A stretch of 10,934 nucleotides of DNA from Candidatus Poribacteria bacterium (GTDB taxonomy: Bacteria; Poribacteria; WGA-4E; WGA-3G): positions 1 through 10,934 of the forward strand of contig VXZL01000617.1 in assembly GCA_009845505.1 (NCBI GenBank), given 5' to 3'. Below are positions 1 through 10,797 of this stretch, one piece after another. The position numbers were made by a program, and so were the translations under genes. A model generated the notes under the pieces. It ran no database searches. It had not been told where the DNA came from and worked only from the letters and a program-made list of their open reading frames with translations. How positions within the stretch are numbered: the first letter of the stretch is position 1; every line of letters begins with the position of its first letter.

Positions 1-240
1 TTCGTAAATAACGTCTTAAGGTTACATAATATCCACTTTAATAGTGCAATTTACTTGTGGACATAGGGGCAGAATCCTTTCGTATTTGGGTTTAATAGGA
101 ACTTGACAATGCGGACGCTTCAAAGCAATACCACTACAGTACAAATCCCTCGGCTACAGATCGCGCCAATTTCTTTACAGAACGGTTCTCTTTACGCGTG
201 GGCTATCTTTACGCCTTTTGTGCAATTTGAAGGCGAAAAC
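1..240. other. Upstream non-coding region; no recognised gene
   Basis: No recognisable protein, tRNA or rRNA is visible in this stretch. A TTGACA hexamer at 103-108 matches the -35 consensus perfectly, but the sequence 15-18 bases downstream contains only weak -10 matches, so a promoter there is possible rather than supported. A small dyad AGAACGGTTCT lies at 180-190. The reading frame of the downstream leader peptide stays open back to 103, with TTG at 103 and ATG at 109 preceded by TAGGA. The leader could therefore be longer than annotated, but the upstream residues resemble no family I know. Confidence 0.4.
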
Positions 241-312
241 GTGCTCTTAAAAGCCGGCCTCGGATTGTATCTATACCTGTACCTTTATCTGTACAGCTAC
301 GCCAGGTGGTGA
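241..312 (+). CDS. Leu/Tyr-rich leader peptide of the aroF-leuA operon (23 aa)
   Basis: This is a short reading frame starting at GTG 241, preceded by GAAGG at 229-233 with 7-nt spacing, and ending in TGA at 310-312. It holds 8 Leu and 6 Tyr among 23 residues. The core, residues 9-18, is five successive Leu-Tyr pairs, followed by SYARW. All six leucine codons (CTC, TTA, TTG, CTA, CTG, CTT) and both tyrosine codons occur, so the pattern is not a simple DNA repeat. An intrinsic terminator follows at 356-396 and then aroF and leuA. In known attenuators such as trp, his, leu and phe, ribosomes stall on codons for the scarce end product and prevent terminator formation. By analogy, this peptide should sense charged tRNA-Leu and tRNA-Tyr. 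A longer in-frame start at 103 or 109 is possible. The dual sensing role is inferred, not shown. Confidence 0.75.
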   Translation: MLLKAGLGLYLYLYLYLYSYARW

Positions 313-358
313 AGCGCCGTAAGCGATGCTATTTTTAACCGATTTCGTTATCACCACC
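305..358 (+). promoter_or_regulatory. Putative antiterminator stem of the attenuator
   Basis: Bases 305-316 (GGTGGTGAAGCG) can pair with 346-358 (CGTTATCACCACC), giving 12 base pairs with one G-U and a single bulged A at 350. The 5' arm contains the leader-peptide stop codon at 310-312. The 3' arm overlaps the first three bases (356-358) of the terminator stem, which are part of its strongest GC-rich base. A ribosome finishing the peptide would cover the 5' arm and leave the terminator free. A ribosome stalled earlier on Leu or Tyr codons would leave the arm free to pair and weaken the terminator. I did not find a convincing segment that sequesters the 5' arm when no ribosome is present. Confidence 0.5.
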
Positions 359-396
359 CAGCGTTGAAGAAAAATTCAATGTTGGGTATTTTTTTT
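356..396 (+). terminator. Rho-independent terminator / attenuator upstream of aroF
   Basis: A 13-bp stem pairs 356-368 (ACCCAGCGTTGAA) with 375-387 (TTCAATGTTGGGT), with two G-U pairs and the loop GAAAAA. It is followed by one A and eight consecutive T residues at 389-396. This is a textbook intrinsic terminator on the plus strand. It lies between the leader peptide and aroF, about 90 bp before the aroF start, with no other complete gene between. It therefore most plausibly controls read-through into aroF-leuA rather than merely ending an upstream gene. Confidence 0.85.
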
Positions 397-485
397 AACT
401 AAACTTGATTTCCAACAGAGTTCCTTTTTAGGGCAGCTTGCAAACTGAAAACTTACTATTAAGAAGGCGGAGGTAGTTGAAAAGC

Positions 486-1505
486 ATGGTAATCGTGACC
501 AAAACCGATGCAACACAGGCAGATATAGATGCTGTTGTTAAACGGATTGAGAGCGTCGGGTTGAAGGCACAAATCTCAACCGGCGAACGCCATACAGTTA
601 TCGGTGTAATTGGAGATAAAACGTTGCTTGGTGATATTCCCATAGAGTCAATGTCCGGTGTGGAGCGAACAATGGCAATTACAGCACCATTCAAGTTGGC
701 ATCCCGTGAATTCCGAGGCGATGAGCCCACTGTTATTGTCGTCAACGGCACAAAGATCGGCGGAAGGGAGATACCTGTTATTGCGGGTCCCTGTGCTGTC
801 GAGAGCACAGAGCAGATCGTAACCATCGCCCAACTGGTTCAAAAGGCTGGGGCGAGTTTCATCAGAGGCGGTGCTTTTAAGCCGAGAACCGGTCCCTATA
901 GCTTCCAAGGTTACGGCGAAGAAGCACTCAAAATGCTACAAGAGGCGAAAGATGAAACAGGACTCGGCATCGTCACCGAAGTGATGACCCCACACGAAGT
1001 CGAACTCGTCGGGGAATATACGGATATGTTCCAACTCGGCACACGGAATATGACAAATTTCTATCTGTTGCGTGAAGTTGGACGCGCACGGAAACCCGTT
1101 ATCCTCAAGCGCGGCATGTCCTCAACAATCGAGGAATGGCTACTCGCCGCTGAGTATATCCTCTCAGAAGGTAATAAGGAGGTCATTCTATGCGAACGCG
1201 GGATCCGAACATTTGAAACGCACACCCGCAACACACTCGACCTGAATGCGGTTCCAGTCGTTCACGAATTGAGCCACTTACCTATTGTTGTCGATCCAAG
1301 CCACGGCACAGGCATCAGGAGTTTGGTCTGTGATATGACGAAAGCATCTGTAGCTGCCGGGGCAGATGGACTCTTACTTGAGGTACATCACGATCCAGAT
1401 CACTCGATGACAGGGGACGGGGCGCAGTCGCTGTTCCCAGACCAATTCGAGGCACTGATGCAGGAACTCAAGCCTATTGCTGTGGCTGTCGGACGTGAAA
1501 TTTAA
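486..1505 (+). CDS. aroF: 3-deoxy-7-phosphoheptulonate synthase (DAHP synthase), type I-beta with N-terminal regulatory domain
   Basis: This enzyme condenses phosphoenolpyruvate and erythrose 4-phosphate to DAHP, the first step of the shikimate pathway. Residues 1-70 form the ferredoxin-like/ACT-type N-terminal domain (MVIVTKTDAT... HTVIGVIGD), as in the Thermotoga maritima-type enzyme, which carries feedback control in relatives. The TIM-barrel follows, with GPCAVES (Cys103), FKPRTGPYSFQG (Lys132), ILKRGM, CERGIRTFE, VDPSHGTG (His273) and the Glu299/Asp311 region, so the metal and substrate residues look intact. The length of 339 aa matches this subfamily. The ATG at 486 is chosen because the protein then begins where relatives begin. 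GGAGG lies at 469-473, 12 nt upstream. A TTG at 477 would be only 3 nt from it. The gene is followed 67 bp later by leuA and preceded by the Leu/Tyr attenuator. Confidence 0.95.
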   Translation: MVIVTKTDATQADIDAVVKRIESVGLKAQISTGERHTVIGVIGDKTLLGDIPIESMSGVERTMAITAPFKLASREFRGDEPTVIVVNGTKIGGREIPVIAGPCAVESTEQIVTIAQLVQKAGASFIRGGAFKPRTGPYSFQGYGEEALKMLQEAKDETGLGIVTEVMTPHEVELVGEYTDMFQLGTRNMTNFYLLREVGRARKPVILKRGMSSTIEEWLLAAEYILSEGNKEVILCERGIRTFETHTRNTLDLNAVPVVHELSHLPIVVDPSHGTGIRSLVCDMTKASVAAGADGLLLEVHHDPDHSMTGDGAQSLFPDQFEALMQELKPIAVAVGREI

Positions 1506-1558
1506 ACCTTTTCGTAATGAAATGGAGAAGCAACCAGATTTAATCGTTAAAAATATTT

Positions 1559-1563
1559 GGAGG
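1559..1563 (+). promoter_or_regulatory. Ribosome binding site fixing the leuA start
   Basis: GGAGG lies 9 nt before a GTG at 1573. The reading frame is open further upstream, to an ATG at 1477 inside aroF and an ATG at 1522, but neither has a comparable site. The GTG start removes residues with no counterpart in the LeuA family. Confidence 0.75.
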
Positions 1564-1572
1564 AACACACCC

Positions 1573-3126
1573 GTGGACGATTTTGAAGCCAACCCGCAAA
1601 AAGTCTACATCTTTGATACAACACTCCGTGATGCAGAACAGACCCCTGGAGCCGCACTCGGTATCCAGGAAAAACTGGAAATTGCTAAGCATCTTGCCAG
1701 ATTAAATGTTGATGTCATTGAAGCCGGATTCCCAATTTCGTCACCCGGTGATTTCGATGCCGTCAAACAGATCGCAAACGAAGTGGAAGGTCCCGAAATC
1801 TGCGCGCTTTCGCGTGTTGTGGAGAAGGACATCACTGCTGCGTGGCAGGCGATTGAAGATGCACCGCGCGCCCGTATCCACACGTTTGTCGGAACCTCTC
1901 CGATCCACATGGGGCGGATCACACGTACAACTCCCGAAGATACACTTCGCATGGCAACCGATGCCGTCGCCTACGCAAAAAGCCTCTGTGAAAACCACGC
2001 TGATGCAAACGTCGAGTTTTCACCGATGGACGCTGGACGCACGGAATTAGCGTTCCTTTATGAAGTCGTTGAAGCCACTATCGCTGCTGGCGCAACCGTC
2101 GTCAACATACCGGAAACCGTCGGATGGACGGTACCGACTGAGTTCGGCGAATTAATTAAAGGCATCATGGAAAACGTCCCAAACGTTAATGATGCTATTA
2201 TTAGTGTCCACTGCCACAACGATCTTGGATTAGCCGTTGCAAACAGTCTCATCGCAATTGAGCAAGGCGCACGGCAGGTGGAATGCACAATCAACGGACT
2301 TGGCGAGCGTGCAGGGAATACCTCACTCGAAGAGGTCGTCATGGCAATCCGCACACGGCGTGATTACTTCAAAGCGTATTACACGGACATTAATGCTAAG
2401 GAAATCGTCCCGATTAGTCGGCGAGTCAGCCGAACGATGGGTATTATGGTGCAGCCGAACAAGGCAATCGTTGGCGCGAATGCCTTCGCACACAGTTCTG
2501 GCATTCACCAAGACGGGATCATCAAATCGCGCGTAACTTTTGAAATCATCGATCCGAAAGAGATTGGATGGAAAGAGAGCCAACTCATTCTGAGTCCCCG
2601 TTCTGGACGCAACGCACTTCGGCACCGCCTCAGCGAACTCGGTTACGAGGTGAACCCCGAAGAATTGGAAAAGGTTTATGAAAGATTTCTCAGCGTCGCT
2701 GATAAGAAAAAGTCAATACAGGATGCCGACCTTGAAGCGATTATGAGCGATGAGATTCGCGCAATCCCCTCTGTCTTTGAACTCGACTATATTCAGGTGG
2801 TCAGCGGAACAAAAATCTCACCGACAACAACGGTCGGAATTCGGACGGAAGGTAAAGTTATTGAAATGGCATCAACCGGAGATGGACCCGTTGATGCAGC
2901 GTTCAAAGCCATCAGTAAAGTTGTTGACATTCAACTGAACCTCATCGACTACCAGATACGATCTGTAACTGAAGGTGAAGACGCTATCGGTGAAGTCTCG
3001 TTGAAGGTGCAGGACAACGGAAATATCATTACCGGACACGGTGCCAGCACAGACATCATTGAAGCGAGTGCACGCGCATATATCCATGCTGTTAACAAAC
3101 TCATTCAGATCCGATCTGAAGGATAG
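1573..3126 (+). CDS. leuA: 2-isopropylmalate synthase
   Basis: LeuA condenses acetyl-CoA with 2-ketoisovalerate to 2-isopropylmalate, the first committed step of leucine synthesis. From the GTG start the protein is 517 aa, the usual length. The DRE-TIM barrel opens with [13 protein letters not shown] (Arg19, Asp20). The metal-binding HCHNDLG is at 213-219 (His213, His215), followed by [14 protein letters not shown] at 241-254. The linker holds HSSGIHQDG at 307-315. The C-terminal LeuA regulatory domain covers about 395-517 ([39 protein letters not shown]), which binds leucine for feedback inhibition in relatives. These motifs favour LeuA over homocitrate or citramalate synthase. It is the second gene of the aroF operon, so leucine control through the upstream leader would make sense. 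It ends in TAG, and a large palindrome follows. Confidence 0.95.
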
Positions 3127-5908: not shown

Positions 5909-8608
5909 CTAAAGCGGTTCCAACCGCACTGGACACACCTTCAATTCAGCCGTGTGAGTAACCGGGTCGTAGCCAGAACCCGTCAACATATTGACCGGCA
6001 CATCCGCAAAACTGAAACTGGCGAAAACCGTGCCACGCGGCGAACGAGCCGTCGCTTTGACTTTGATGTTGATACTCCCGCGCGCACTACTCATCCGACA
6101 CCACTCCCCGTCTGCTAATTGCCATCTCTCAAGGTCAACAGGATTGACTTCTAAGGATTCTTCCGGTAAGAGATAATCAATCCCTTCTGCTCTGCCTGTT
6201 TGGGTTCGCGTGTGATAGGACTGCAAACGTCTACCGGTTGTGAGCCATACAGGGAATTCTTCACTAATCGTTTCAGCAGGATCGCGGTAGTGGACATTCG
6301 AGAAGATACCGCGTCCATTGACAAACGTCTCCTCGTGAAGTCTCGGTGTCCCCGGATGTGCTTTATGCGGGACGGGCCATTGATACTTGCCTCTCTCAAT
6401 GCGGTCCCAATCCAATCCAGCATAGATAGGCGAGACGCGACAGAGCTCGTTGAAAATCGGTTTTGGAGCGTTGAAGTCAAAGCCTTTAAACCCAAGACGT
6501 TGCGCAATCTGACAGATAATCCACCAGTCCGGCTTGGCATCACCCGGCGGAGGCACCGCAGCACGCATCCGTTGGACGCGGCGCTCTGTATTCGTGCATA
6601 CACCCTCTGTTTCACCCCACGCTGTTGCAGGTAGGACAACATCAGCAAGTTCTGCAGTCTCCGTCAGAAAGATGTCGATGACAACAAGATGCGCTAATGA
6701 ACGCAACGCGTGTTCGCAATGCTCTCGATCCGGGTCAGAAATTAGCGTATTCTCACCGTCAATCAACATCGCATGGATACTATCACTACAAAGTTCTAAC
6801 GCCGTCACTTTCGTGATGCCCTTCTCCAAGTCAATCTCTCTGCCGTATTCCGCTTTAAACTTCGCTTGATGTGCTGGATCTGTGACAGCTTGGAAGCCGG
6901 GATAGTTATTTGGTAATGCCCCACTATCCCCTGCCCCTTGGATGTTGTTTTGTCCACGCATCGGGTTGATTCCCGTTCCCTCTCGTCCGACATGACCGGT
7001 CATCAAGGCAAGATTGCACAGGCTTTGGACATTCTCAACACCACAGATGTGCTCGGTAATCCCCAATGTGTAGTAGATAGCACCCTTGTTCGCGCTGCCA
7101 TACCACATCGCTGCTGTCTCAATATCCTTTGCAGGCACACCCGTAATTGTTTCCGCCCATTCGGGTGTCCATTGACTGATATGTTCAAAGAACGCATCAA
7201 ATCCGGTCGTGCGATTTTTGATGAAGTCTTCGTCAATCAAGCCTTCACGAGCGATAACGTGTGCCATGCCGAGAAGTAGGGCTGTATCTGAACCGACGCG
7301 GAGAGGCAAGTAAAGATGCGACATCTCCGCCAATCCGATGCGTCTCGGATCCGCCACGATCAACTTCGCACCGCGGGCGACCGCCTTCTTAAGTCCCGTC
7401 GCTGCAACCGGGTGACACTCGGTCATATTCGTACCGATACAGAAGATAACATCCGGTTTCTCCATATCCACGAGCGGATTAGACATCGCCCCACGTCCGA
7501 TTGTCGCTGCCAGACCGGCAACGGTCGGGGCGTGTCAGGCACGGCTACAATTGTCGATATAGTTCGTCCCAAACCCCGCACGGATAAACTTCTGCATGAG
7601 ATACGCCGCTTCGCTCGGTGCGCGCCCAGAAGCAACACCGTAGACGCTATGTCTACCGTGTTCAACATTGACCTTTCGGAAGCCTTCGGCGGCACTATCA
7701 AGTGCGTCATCCCATGTAGTTTCGTGGAGTTCACCGTCATCACCGCGAACAAGAGGCGTTTTCAACCGATCGGGATGTTGAACGAAGTCGTAAGCGAACT
7801 GCCCTTTCACACAGAGCGCACCCTGATTCGCAGGTCCGTCCATAGCGGGGTGGATACCGACAATCTTCTCGTTTTTCGTTAGGACATCAACAGAACACCC
7901 GACACCACAATACGGACAAATAGTGCGCGTCTTCTCAAGAACAGCCTCCGCAACTTCGTCAACGGCACGAAGTGCCTTTTTGTCAGCAAGGGCACCGGTC
8001 GGACAGGTCTGAATACACTGCCCACAAAACGTACAGGCAGAGTCTTTGAGAAGTCCATTAAATTCGGTCGTAATCTGGGTATGGAAGCCGCGATTCATGA
8101 CGTTAATGGCGTGGTCCCCCTCTTGCTCAGCACAGACGCGGACACACCGATAACACGAGATACAAAGTTCATAATCTCTGAGAATAAACGGATTGTCGTC
8201 ATCGGCTTTACTTGTGCCGGATATCGCACCCGTGATACGTTCCTCGTTAATTTCATACCTGTCGCGGAGGGCTGCGAGTTCGCCAGCGGCATAGCCGCGC
8301 AATGGAGAGACATCAACTTCGCGATTCTCACCGACAACCATTTCAAGCAACGTCTTCCGATACGCCTCTATTGTATCGGTTGAAGTGCGAACAACCATAC
8401 CAGGCGTGGCTTTGGTTGTACAGGATGCAACAGGGTTTCGCGCCCCTTCTAATTCAACAATACAGAGACGACATCCTCCAAAGGGTTCAAGCCTCGGATC
8501 GTAGCAAAGCGTTGGAATTTCTTTCTGATGACGTTGTGCAACCTCAAGGATGGTTTCATCCTCAGAGAAAGAGACTTCAACACCATCAATTTCTATTGTA
8601 TGTCTCAT
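5909..8608 (-). CDS. fdhA: Formate dehydrogenase alpha subunit, selenocysteine-containing (TGA at 7535-7537 read as Sec)
   Basis: This molybdenum- or tungsten-bis-pyranopterin enzyme interconverts formate and CO2. Read through the TGA it has 899 residues, with Sec358 in NCSRA-Sec-HAPTVAGL, exactly where Escherichia coli FdhF has Sec in a similar motif. Residues 1-78 are a [2Fe-2S] ferredoxin domain (Cys35, 46, 49, 63). Two [4Fe-4S] clusters follow (Cys149, 152, 155, 159 and Cys192, 195, 198, 202). The catalytic domain starts with CPYCGVGC and CVKG (Cys231, 234, 238, 266; Lys268). RGQNNIQGAGD lies near 551, and the C-terminal cofactor domain covers about 782-895. The His-Cys cluster motif seen after the ferredoxin domain in NuoG-like proteins is absent. 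The ATG at 8608 has GAGG at 9 nt. A TTG at 8623 is less likely. The gene lies 50 bp after the BMP pair. No NADH-binding partner subunit or fdhD is in the window. The electron acceptor is unknown. Confidence 0.93.
7497..7537 (-). promoter_or_regulatory. Selenocysteine UGA codon and bacterial SECIS-like hairpin within fdhA
   Basis: The UGA is at 7535-7537. After 12 bases comes GUUGCC-GGUCU-GGCAGC (7522 down to 7506), a six-bp stem with one U-G pair and a GGUCU loop. A lower stem CCGA/UCGG (7525-7528 with 7497-7500) closes it. The E. coli fdhF element has the same GGUCU loop sequence at nearly the same distance from its UGA, where SelB with Sec-tRNA binds. The surrounding codons continue to encode conserved protein, so the site is a recoding signal rather than a gene end. 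Confidence 0.85.
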
Positions 8609-8658
8609 CGCGATAAACCTCAAAGTGTCGCGACCTGAGGCCGCTTCTACCGAACAGG

Positions 8659-9726
8659 CTATTCCTCTCCACTAAAATCGATTTGTGGAACCTCTAATGT
8701 GCCAGCTAAAATTTGCTCTCTCGCTTCCTCAACCTTTTGCTGAACTTCTTCAGGTACCTGATCCCTCAGTTCTGGGTTATAAGTCAAAGCGATTGCGCCA
8801 CCGGTTGTCATTGTGAAGACATAGAGTTTGGATTCAAAAGTCCCCTCTTTGACTGCCGTCGCGAGTTGTACATAGGCTCTTGGTGTAATGACGGCATTCG
8901 CAAGCACTGCACGCGGGGAAACAGCACTTTGATCTCGGTTAGCACCGAAGGAATAAACGGTTTTCCCAGAATCCTGCGCCAAGACGACGGCTTCAAACAC
9001 ACCAATTCCCGCTTCGTTGGCGTTATGAAAAATAAAATCAACGCCTTCTTGTATCTGGGCAAGTGCCAATTCCTTTGCCTTCGCGATGTTTTCCCAGTCT
9101 CCTACGTAGGCACGTTGCACAACCGCGTCAGGATTAACGCTTTTTACGCCCCCTTCAAACGCCATAAACGTGCTGCTACCAGATGGAAGCTCCTGCCCGC
9201 CAACAATACCGATCTTGTCTGTTTGGGTCATCATACCTGCTATCATACCCAAGAGGTAGGTGGCTTGTTCAAGCCGAAAGACAATCGGCGCGACATTCTC
9301 ACGAACAGCACCGCTTGCTCCGGCAGACGTAATAAAGACGATTTCAGGGTAATCTTGTGCAACGGCTATGGCTGCTTCCTGATACTCGTAACCATGCCCA
9401 AAGATAAGGTGATAGCCATCCATAGCATAAGCACGAAAATCTGCTTCCCAGACAGATGGCGTTAAACTCTCAACATAGTCTATTTCGGCACCGAGTTCGG
9501 TTTCAATTGCTTTCAATCCATCGTGTGCTAAAGCATTCCACCCTTCGTCAGTGATGGCACCCGGAAGCAGCATACCGACTTTGAGCGTTTCAGGCGCAGG
9601 CGGAGAGACAATTTTGCCACTATCCGGAACCCTCTCACACCCTAATATGAAACCGATTGCCAAGAAACATACAATAAGCGTAGGATTTACGATCCTATCT
9701 CGCAATTTCCAGCAATTCTTTTTCAT
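8659..9726 (-). CDS. BMP family ABC transporter substrate-binding lipoprotein
   Basis: This 355-aa protein belongs to the BMP/PnrA/Med family of periplasmic-type binding proteins, whose characterised members bind purine nucleosides for ABC import. The N-terminus is a basic stretch and a hydrophobic segment ending in FILGC, a lipobox with Cys30, so a membrane-anchored lipoprotein is expected. The mature protein begins with LKVGMLLPGAITDEGWNALAHDGL. Further family features are FGHGYEYQEAA, IAGMMTQTDKIGIVGG, FMAFEGGVKSVNP and VDFIFHNANEAG. It is a close paralogue of the gene immediately upstream, 6 bp away. An AGAGGA ribosome site lies inside the end of that gene, so translation is probably coupled. 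No permease or ATPase is in the window. The ligand is unknown. Confidence 0.92.
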   Translation of the reverse strand: MKKNCWKLRDRIVNPTLIVCFLAIGFILGCERVPDSGKIVSPPAPETLKVGMLLPGAITDEGWNALAHDGLKAIETELGAEIDYVESLTPSVWEADFRAYAMDGYHLIFGHGYEYQEAAIAVAQDYPEIVFITSAGASGAVRENVAPIVFRLEQATYLLGMIAGMMTQTDKIGIVGGQELPSGSSTFMAFEGGVKSVNPDAVVQRAYVGDWENIAKAKELALAQIQEGVDFIFHNANEAGIGVFEAVVLAQDSGKTVYSFGANRDQSAVSPRAVLANAVITPRAYVQLATAVKEGTFESKLYVFTMTTGGAIALTYNPELRDQVPEEVQQKVEEAREQILAGTLEVPQIDFSGEE

Positions 9727-9732
9727 TTACGA

Positions 9733-10797
9733 CTATTCCTCTGCGCTTTCACTGAAATCAATCTGCGGCACTTTCAATTCGCCAGCAAGGATTTTCGCTT
9801 TGGCATCCTCAACGGCTCTTTGCACATCTTCCGGCACCTTATCCTTCAATGCCGGACTATAGGTAAGCGTAATCGCTTCGTCTGTTAGCATGTTAAAGGT
9901 ATAAATCTGTGGCTTGAATTTGCCTTCTTTAATGATCTTGGCAATCTGCACAAACGCGTCGGGTGTAATTACTGCGTTCGCAATCACAGTTGGGGATATA
10001 TCGCTCTTATCCCGGTTCGCGCCGAACGTGTATACCATCCTTCCCTCTTTTTCGGCAGTTTCAGATTTGTTAAAAATCTCAGCCGCCTCATAGGCACCGA
10101 GTCCTGCTGCGTCGGCATTCGGAAAAATAAAGTCAACGCCTTCGCTAATTTGTGCCAATGCGAGTTCCTTGCCTTTACCAATGTCCTCCCAGTTTCCGAC
10201 GTATACCCAAGATACTTCTGCATCAGGGTTCACGCGCTTCGCACCGCCTTCAAACGCCATAAATGTGCTATTCACAGACGGGATATTCTGTCCACCCATA
10301 ACACCAAGCTTATTCGTCTGGGTCATCATGCCAGCAATTATCCCTAACAGATAGGCGGGCTGCTCAACACGAAAGTTTGCTGCCGAGATGTTATCGGTAA
10401 TCGTGCCACCCGAAGAGGTAATGAAAATCGTCTCAGGAAAATCTGGTGCGACTGCTTTCGCCGGGTCCTGAAACTCATACCCGTGTCCAAACACCATATT
10501 GTAACCATCAAGGGCATAAGCGCGGAACTGTTCTTCCTGATCCGTAGGGGTCCGAGTCTCAGCGTGGCTGATCTCTGCGCCTAATTCTTTTTCAATCGCT
10601 TTAAGTCCTTCATACGCCAAAGCATTCCAGCCTGCGTCACTAATTGAACCCGGAAGCAGCATAGCGACCTTAAATTTCTCATGTCCCTTCGCGTCAAGAC
10701 TTACGTTCCCTATTAACACGAATCCGACCATAAAAAGGCATATACATAAAACAGAACATGCAATGTTATTTCGTAACTTATAAAATATTTGTATCAC
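9733..10797 (-). CDS. BMP family ABC transporter substrate-binding protein (signal peptide without lipobox)
   Basis: This 354-aa BMP-family binding protein is a tandem paralogue of the gene that follows it, alike over the whole length (KVAMLLPGSISDAGWNALAYEGLK, FGHGYEFQDPA, MMTQTNKLGVMGGQ, FMAFEGGAKRVNPDA, ALAQISEGVDFIFPNADAAG). The N-terminus has a hydrophobic export segment at about 12-30. Where its partner has ILGC this one reads LIGN, so there is no lipidation cysteine and the product is probably a soluble exported protein. The start is GTG at 10797 with AAGGAG 10 nt upstream. It is the first gene of the minus-strand group and has its own promoter at 10835-10864. The ligand is unknown. 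Purine nucleosides are the family precedent. Confidence 0.92.
   Translation of the reverse strand: MIQIFYKLRNNIACSVLCICLFMVGFVLIGNVSLDAKGHEKFKVAMLLPGSISDAGWNALAYEGLKAIEKELGAEISHAETRTPTDQEEQFRAYALDGYNMVFGHGYEFQDPAKAVAPDFPETIFITSSGGTITDNISAANFRVEQPAYLLGIIAGMMTQTNKLGVMGGQNIPSVNSTFMAFEGGAKRVNPDAEVSWVYVGNWEDIGKGKELALAQISEGVDFIFPNADAAGLGAYEAAEIFNKSETAEKEGRMVYTFGANRDKSDISPTVIANAVITPDAFVQIAKIIKEGKFKPQIYTFNMLTDEAITLTYSPALKDKVPEDVQRAVEDAKAKILAGELKVPQIDFSESAEE

Follow-up and report, generated by a model that had tools for sequence, protein, structure and literature searches.

A putative ribosome-mediated transcription attenuator with leucine and aromatic control codons at the aroF-leuA operon of Poribacteria

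The aroF-leuA operon and its leader reading frame

The window analysed here, a 10,934-nucleotide stretch of the forward strand of contig VXZL01000617.1 of Candidatus Poribacteria bacterium (assembly GCA_009845505.1), carries two adjacent genes of amino acid biosynthesis on its plus strand. The first, aroF (477..1505, with an alternative start at ATG 486), encodes a DAHP synthase of the B. subtilis type (NCBIfam DAHP_synth_Bsub), and the AroF protein is the sole match in its own genome. The second, leuA (1522..3126), encodes 2-isopropylmalate synthase (NCBIfam leuA_bact); its frame is open from TTG 1477, the start is likely ATG 1522, and the genome contains one match above the NCBIfam cut-off and a second one below it.

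Upstream of aroF, on the same strand, lies an open reading frame of 67 codons (109..312) encoding the peptide MRTLQ...GLYLYLYLYLYSYARW and terminated by TGA 310-312, with a Shine-Dalgarno-like AGGA (97..100) 8 nt 5' of its ATG. The control-codon run of this leader (265..294) comprises five Leu-Tyr pairs, in which the Leu codons are TTG, CTA, CTG, CTT and CTG. The initial annotation of the locus had described a 23-codon frame starting at GTG 241. Its composition has been confirmed, with 8 Leu and 6 Tyr among the 23 in-frame codons from GTG 241 to TGA 310-312, but the start has not: position 241 is not conserved among the relatives, and GTG 241 was rejected. Because the frame in the relatives begins at a conserved ATG and the residue at 241 varies (L081 has Leu there, and most other leaders diverge over this segment), initiation at GTG 241 appears very unlikely and ATG 109 is the probable start. 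This ATG and the frame are retained across relatives, as seen in a first pass that covered 38 of 39 named Poribacteria loci and a second pass over further genomes, and a composition-blind rule that takes the longest ATG-initiated frame yields the same stop at 60 of 61 aroF-leuA loci. Most leaders of the same family have AGGA or a similar purine stretch 5' of the ATG, which is less clear in families f2-f4. The locus thus appears to contain a short translated frame with conserved register and start signals, as an attenuator would. A sigma-70-like promoter, TTGACT-17-TATTAT, is located 221 nt 5' of the leader ATG in a genome of the same species (L079), at a position outside the window; at the 58 of 61 loci with sufficient upstream sequence, the best promoter matches average 10.0/12 vs 8.4 in shuffles. 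Two leaders, L088 and L093, contain an apparent duplicated inner segment (LASKNLLL.../LASSSLLL...), so the stretch between the start and the run seems free to vary in length.

AroF was detected in 76 of the 84 genomes of the phylum. With one locus at a contig edge (G051) and five weak remote AroF matches left out, 77 aroF loci were examined; at 65 of them leuA follows on the same strand, and at the other 12 no leuA occurs in the fetched stretch, which covers 0.7-3.1 kb downstream. The leader, the antiterminator and the terminator described below were found directly 5' of aroF at 61 of the 65 aroF-leuA loci (four of the 61 were placed by hand), all of them from one taxonomic order; these genomes are related to one another, so that locus counts are not counts of independent events. 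At another aroF-leuA locus, L131, the sequence is cut off 119 nt upstream and the terminator is present, and three loci from deeper families (L140-L142) have no leader directly before aroF. Covariance models were employed alongside the inspection of loci, one (R1) built from the aroF-leuA attenuators and a broader one (R2). At the 12 aroF loci without nearby leuA, no terminator passed the test and R2 gave no match at E 0.1. Among 38 AroF loci in records not titled Poribacteria, no leuA match was present in the fetched stretch, and R2 produced one weak match (L076, E 0.067). In several relatives, the gene immediately 5' of the aroF leader is tyrS.

Alternative RNA structures and codon conservation

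An intrinsic terminator hairpin (356..387, regions 3 and 4; 13 pairs, -19.2 kcal/mol) followed by a U tract (389..396) is encoded on the plus strand ahead of aroF, the first structural gene, as in known attenuators. The strong terminator followed by aroF and leuA that had been noted from the sequence alone is therefore upheld, and both genes are named by NCBIfam. A competing antiterminator is predicted between a 5' arm at 299..312 (region 2) and a 3' arm at 351..364 (region 3), likewise on the plus strand, with a duplex energy of -23.6 kcal/mol. The final leader codons, AGG TGG TGA, sit within the 5' arm. The 3' arm overlaps the terminator stem at 356-364, the 5' arm of the terminator, so that one structure excludes the other. 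Since region 2 overlaps the stop codon, a ribosome at the stop would cover it, and a ribosome stalled in the run would leave it free. A mutually exclusive antiterminator whose 5' arm becomes covered once the leader has been completed, another mark of an attenuator, is thus predicted.

Both helices were evaluated in 59 distinct aligned sequences. The terminator is paired in 97.7% of cells and shows compensatory changes. The antiterminator helix is 83.6% paired, a value biased towards the register, which was drawn from the same sequences; when the partners are slid by 1-3 columns, pairing falls to 27-61%. Changes on both sides of antiterminator pairs number 57 vs 19.6 in shuffles, with none of 500 shuffles as high, and the covariation score exceeds that of all 500. 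Two of the five covariation measures are not above the shuffles, namely the number of antiterminator pairs with both-side changes (7 vs 5.3 shuffled, matched by 80/500) and the occurrence of further pair types (matched by 141/500). Two inner antiterminator pairs are mostly unpaired, and the register used for counting does not hold in L130 and L132, where an alternative pairing exists. Families f2-f4 form the same helix from different sequence in homologous columns, for example with UA replaced by CG at columns 34-101 and CG by UA at columns 27-108.

Folding calculations with the RNA ending at region 3 gave an antiterminator probability above 0.8 in 53 of 59 leaders when a ribosome was modelled as stalled at the last Leu or Tyr codon 5' of region 2, in 41 of 59 with no ribosome, and in 0 of 59 with a ribosome at the stop; the last value is built into the calculation, which masks region 2, and does not count as an independent test. 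For the leader of the window, the respective probabilities are 1.0, 0.04 and 0.0. By calculation, then, a stalled ribosome would leave the antiterminator able to form. A pause or protector hairpin (1:2) is found in the trp attenuator and is absent from some others; here no conserved protector is apparent, because the antiterminator is predicted without a ribosome in 41/59 leaders, the window leader (0.04) being an exception. In full-length RNA at equilibrium, the terminator is dominant on average in all three ribosome states (0.95, 0.99 and 0.96, the mean with the stalled ribosome being 0.95), with exceptions such as L118 and L119. Because a stalled ribosome does not, on average, keep the terminator from prevailing at equilibrium, switching has to be under kinetic control. 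The fold z-score of 230-400 is -2.65. In a joint test for a terminator, an antiterminator and a frame with at least 11 L/Y/F/W within 22 codons, 8/8 upstream regions pass vs 0/1548 dinucleotide shuffles, which were derived from the first seven of these eight regions; a terminator arose in 110 of the shuffles, in 31 of them together with an antiterminator.

In the 35 leaders of the window's genus, the run consists of 2 to 6 LY pairs, with Leu sometimes substituted. Its Leu codons are TTG (43), CTG (54), TTA (23), CTT (18) and CTA (7), with no CTC, and its Tyr codons are TAT (91) and TAC (89). Mapped on the AroF tree, the three rightmost Tyr positions underwent 3 synonymous and 0 non-synonymous changes, three Leu positions 7 synonymous and 7 non-synonymous ones (to Val, Phe or Met), and the N-terminal codons 2-13 underwent 23 and 58, respectively; the non-synonymous/synonymous ratio of codons 2-13 is 0.89 vs 0.04 in AroF. 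Constraint is therefore stronger on Tyr than on Leu, and it is nearly absent from the N-terminal part of the peptide. The C-terminus is Arg-Trp in 35/35 leaders of the genus, and leaders of other families end differently.

Homologous leaders, for which the initial annotation had proposed to look, are thus present with their terminator at 61/65 loci, but the strict LY run is confined to the genus of the window and, in shorter form, g2. In g3 and other families the operon is kept and the run is lost, a finding that had been named beforehand as counting against the attenuator; Leu, Tyr and Phe are nevertheless kept in place, in g3 together with Trp. The 17 leaders of g3, which lack an LY run (e.g., LWALFTLGLYPFLYCGGRW), have Leu, Phe, Tyr and Trp shares of 0.23, 0.17, 0.13 and 0.06, vs 0.086, 0.030, 0.014 and 0.003 in AroF. 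In g1, the in-frame shares are 0.30 for Leu vs 0.07 and 0.12 in the shifted frames, and 0.23 for Tyr vs 0.05 and 0.00. Because Leu (0.11, 0.18) and Tyr (0.09, 0.08) also occur in the shifted frames of g3, the contrast between frames is weaker there than in g1. The sensed set would accordingly be better described as Leu plus aromatic residues.

An origin of the run as a slippage repeat is disfavoured, because its Leu codons differ and Tyr persists despite third-base variation. The commonest Leu codon of AroF, CTC (29%), accounts for 0/145 run Leu codons in the window and 34 relatives, which perhaps reflects isoacceptor choice or an RNA constraint.

Sister attenuators and their codons

R1 matched 71 of the 84 genomes at E 0.01 and also places other than aroF, and R2 found matches in 76 of the 84 at E 0.001, three of them in the genome to which the window belongs. 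We inspected 52 further places, comprising 32 of the 34 non-aroF places found with R1 and 20 picked among the R2 matches listed. The genes that follow, some identified by NCBIfam and the rest by sequence likeness (some truncated ileS pieces fall below the curated cut-off), are ileS (25, including three deep-branch loci), leuS (6), tyrS (5), an AroG-type DAHP synthase (6), an unnamed family (4), hisS (1) and partial or unassigned matches (5). The AroG-type gene is followed by leuA on the same strand in 6/6 cases, at roughly 0.1-0.9 kb.

Codon shares were computed over the last 22 codons of the longest ATG frame with its stop in the permitted interval, chosen without regard to composition; the partial or unassigned matches L224, L225, L227, L228 and L229 were omitted, the rule gave no ATG leader for L137, L210, L213, L219 and L221, and for L211 it chose a frame other than that of the ileS relatives. 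The ileS leaders (n=20) are rich in Ile (0.23; Leu 0.08, Tyr 0.00), the leuS leaders (n=5) in Leu (0.29; Tyr 0.01) and the tyrS leaders (n=5) in Tyr (0.17; Leu 0.12), and both kinds of DAHP synthase-leuA operons have leaders combining Leu, Tyr and Phe (0.25, 0.20 and 0.10 for aroF-leuA, n=60; 0.26, 0.17 and 0.12 for AroG-type DAHP synthase with leuA, n=5). At least 3 Leu together with at least 2 Tyr occur in 58/60 aroF-leuA leaders, L138 and L139 being below the threshold, and in 5/5 AroG-type-leuA leaders; elsewhere, they occur in 0/20 ileS, 0/5 leuS, 2/5 tyrS and 1/3 deep-branch leaders. Consistent enrichment of Leu together with Tyr is seen only in leaders that precede a DAHP synthase and leuA. 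The codons track the downstream gene, as a sensor function would lead one to expect, and putative control codons for the end products of the downstream genes lie just 5' of region 2, as they would in an attenuator. The match between the enriched residues and the end products of aroF and leuA, pointed out for this single locus, is thus strengthened by codons that swap with the gene across sister attenuators.

In the window's own genome, an ileS leader (L297) ends RAISIIIAIRRAVVG. In G072 (g1), one of two tyrS copies has a leader (L198/L236, G072:C9:34996-35118, E 4.9e-16) that closely resembles the aroF-leuA leader and ends GLYLYLYCNGRW. A survey of 30 tyrS loci, of which 29 were placed, found the leader at both loci of families f2 and f3 and in none of the 27 placed loci of g1-g3, one of which has only 57 nt upstream. 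No leader of the aroF-leuA kind was found at the placed trpE (4/5) and pheA (5/5) loci, three of which (L157, L158 and L163) have hairpins with T runs and no matching leader, and an Rfam scan of leuC and tyrA loci gave no match. Rfam T-boxes were found at ilvB in G081, G079, G000 and G083 (L165, L166, L167 and L168, respectively), and these bacteria therefore use both T-boxes and translated leaders. The model match before hisS (L205, G026:C18:23297-23410) is accompanied by a frame that lacks a run of His codons. Within the window's genus, four genomes (loci L304-L307) have the attenuator core, with a leader ending ..GLG.VL.GI.MC..VVGE, 5' of the unnamed gene, for which the one copy scanned of the four (L304) had no NCBIfam match at E 1e-100.

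Proposed mechanism, alternatives and known systems

The conserved frame, the covarying antiterminator and terminator, and the codons that match the downstream genes best support the dual-specificity attenuator put forward in the initial annotation, and we assign a probability of about three in four to the view that a composite sensor controls the aroF-leuA operon through ribosome-mediated transcription attenuation. According to this scheme, the 67-codon frame would be translated by a ribosome as the polymerase proceeds through the leader. When charged forms of tRNA-Leu and tRNA-Tyr are ample (in sister genera, those of the tRNAs for Phe and Trp as well), the ribosome would reach TGA 310-312 and cover 299-312, the terminator at 356-387 would form, and transcription would end at about 396. 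If either charged tRNA were scarce, the ribosome would stall within 265-294 and expose region 2, which could then pair with 351-364 before region 4 is made and allow read-through into aroF and leuA. We infer transcription in vivo, ribosome stalling and a response to each of the amino acids. Judging from sequence, this sponge-associated bacterium would most likely co-induce the first genes of aromatic and of leucine biosynthesis when either amino acid is scarce. The Tyr arm of the sensor is better supported than the Leu arm, the Leu input being suggested by composition and by the association with leuA.

That asymmetry is the ground for a sensor of tyrosine, or of aromatic residues, only, in which the Leu codons are hydrophobic filler or ancestral and leuA merely rides in the operon. 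The invariant Tyr positions, the Leu positions that shift to Val, Phe or Met, the LY pairs ahead of a tyrosine-charging gene in G072 and the tyrS genes adjoining the aroF leader would all suit such a sensor. We nevertheless consider it unlikely: the Leu share of the aroF-leuA leaders is near that of the leuS leaders and twice that of the tyrS leaders, this share is kept in the operons of AroG-type DAHP synthase with leuA and in genera without the LY run, and a leader before aroF has been detected only where leuA follows.

The substitution pattern also bears on the suggestion that the leader is a small protein or a peptide that arrests the ribosome in the manner of TnaC or SecM, the peptide sequence being the signal. 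Although the leader is long and ends in Arg-Trp throughout the genus, codons 2-13 are nearly unconstrained compared with AroF, so that a conserved peptide beyond the control codons was not found; moreover, the run differs in length by whole LY pairs, and the Arg-Trp codons fall in region 2, where RNA pairing explains them, with other families ending otherwise. This reading is highly improbable, and still more so is control of the operon by a T-box or another aptamer RNA with the frame incidental. The presence of T-boxes at 4/5 ilvB loci of the same bacteria makes the latter worth weighing, but in the window no Rfam family reaches its cut-off, a relaxed threshold gives one chance-level match (E 8.7), and the conservation of codons and frame would be left unexplained. 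A T-box or known riboswitch was rejected on the lack of a T-box covariance-model match in the window, where no Rfam amino-acid leader family reaches its gathering score either.

Attenuators with several sensed amino acids are known from Escherichia coli, in which the thrABC and ilvGMEDA leaders each respond to several amino acids of one pathway or family. The composite attenuator proposed here is alike in sensing more than one amino acid, but it would join unrelated pathways, leucine and aromatic.

Parts of the proposed arrangement have precedents. The AroR leader of the Corynebacterium glutamicum aroF operon, with its Phe-Tyr-Phe codons (PMC11802643; PMC4046766), is likewise a leader peptide 5' of a DAHP synthase gene at which ribosome stalling leads to read-through; it belongs to another phylum, it responds to Phe limitation and not to Tyr availability according to a review, and the available text of these sources mentions neither a leucine codon run nor leuA. 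The Shewanella leuA leader (PMC2659441) similarly has a Leu codon run and an antiterminator and terminator before leuA, but, as far as that account goes, it senses leucine only and contains an anti-antiterminator stem, for which the Poribacteria leaders show no apparent conserved counterpart; a table in the same paper lists an attenuator sensing Tyr-tRNA for aroF and credits it to a 1980 paper. Attenuators predicted for Streptomyces leuS and trpS (PMC1262725) are classical and precede aminoacyl-tRNA synthetase genes, like those of ileS, leuS and tyrS here, but are described there as specific for a single amino acid, and the same source reports ileS T-boxes in several Actinobacteria. No title among the matches listed from the open-licence literature concerned a leader combining Leu and Tyr or attenuation in Poribacteria. 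Among these matches, then, a DAHP synthase leader, leuA leaders and synthetase attenuators are known, and the combination of Leu and Tyr and the occurrence in Poribacteria are new.

If the composite attenuator is confirmed, one leader couples leucine and aromatic synthesis at the level of transcription in an uncultivated phylum. The codon-swapped sister copies would then amount to naturally varied sensors sharing a single RNA scaffold, in which the rules of control codons, spacing and multi-input sensing could be tested with reporters, and would offer a codon-based route to predicting the amino acid that a leader senses.

Three deep branches bear on the origin of these elements, as in them a related leader precedes ileS and not aroF directly. 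In G004, 45 nt separate the end of ileS from aroF, and the leader is found 5' of ileS on the same contig. In G003, two contigs are involved, one with an ileS end 29 nt upstream of aroF and the other with the leader and the start of ileS, which would probably be linked to the former. In G002, a frame that by eye resembles the ileS end stops 785 nt before aroF. The leaders of G003 and G004 mix Ile, Leu, Phe, Tyr and Trp, and that of G002 has Ile and Leu. It is quite possible, although somewhat less likely than not, that Poribacteria possess modular, codon-swappable attenuators with a common core, in which the leader of a joint ileS-aroF-leuA operon, an arrangement persisting in the deep branches with Ile, Leu and aromatic codons, was duplicated to give single-input ileS, leuS and tyrS copies and a composite aromatic-leucine copy, together filling the place that T-boxes occupy at synthetase genes in other phyla.

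The distal part of the window carries further genes on the minus strand. A formate dehydrogenase alpha-like protein is encoded at 5909-8623 across two frames, 5909-7486 and 7535-8623, which align with consecutive parts of one NCBIfam profile below its cut-off, and two adjacent, related substrate-binding proteins, with ABC_BMP_B6 matches below the cut-off, are encoded in tandem at 8659-10797.
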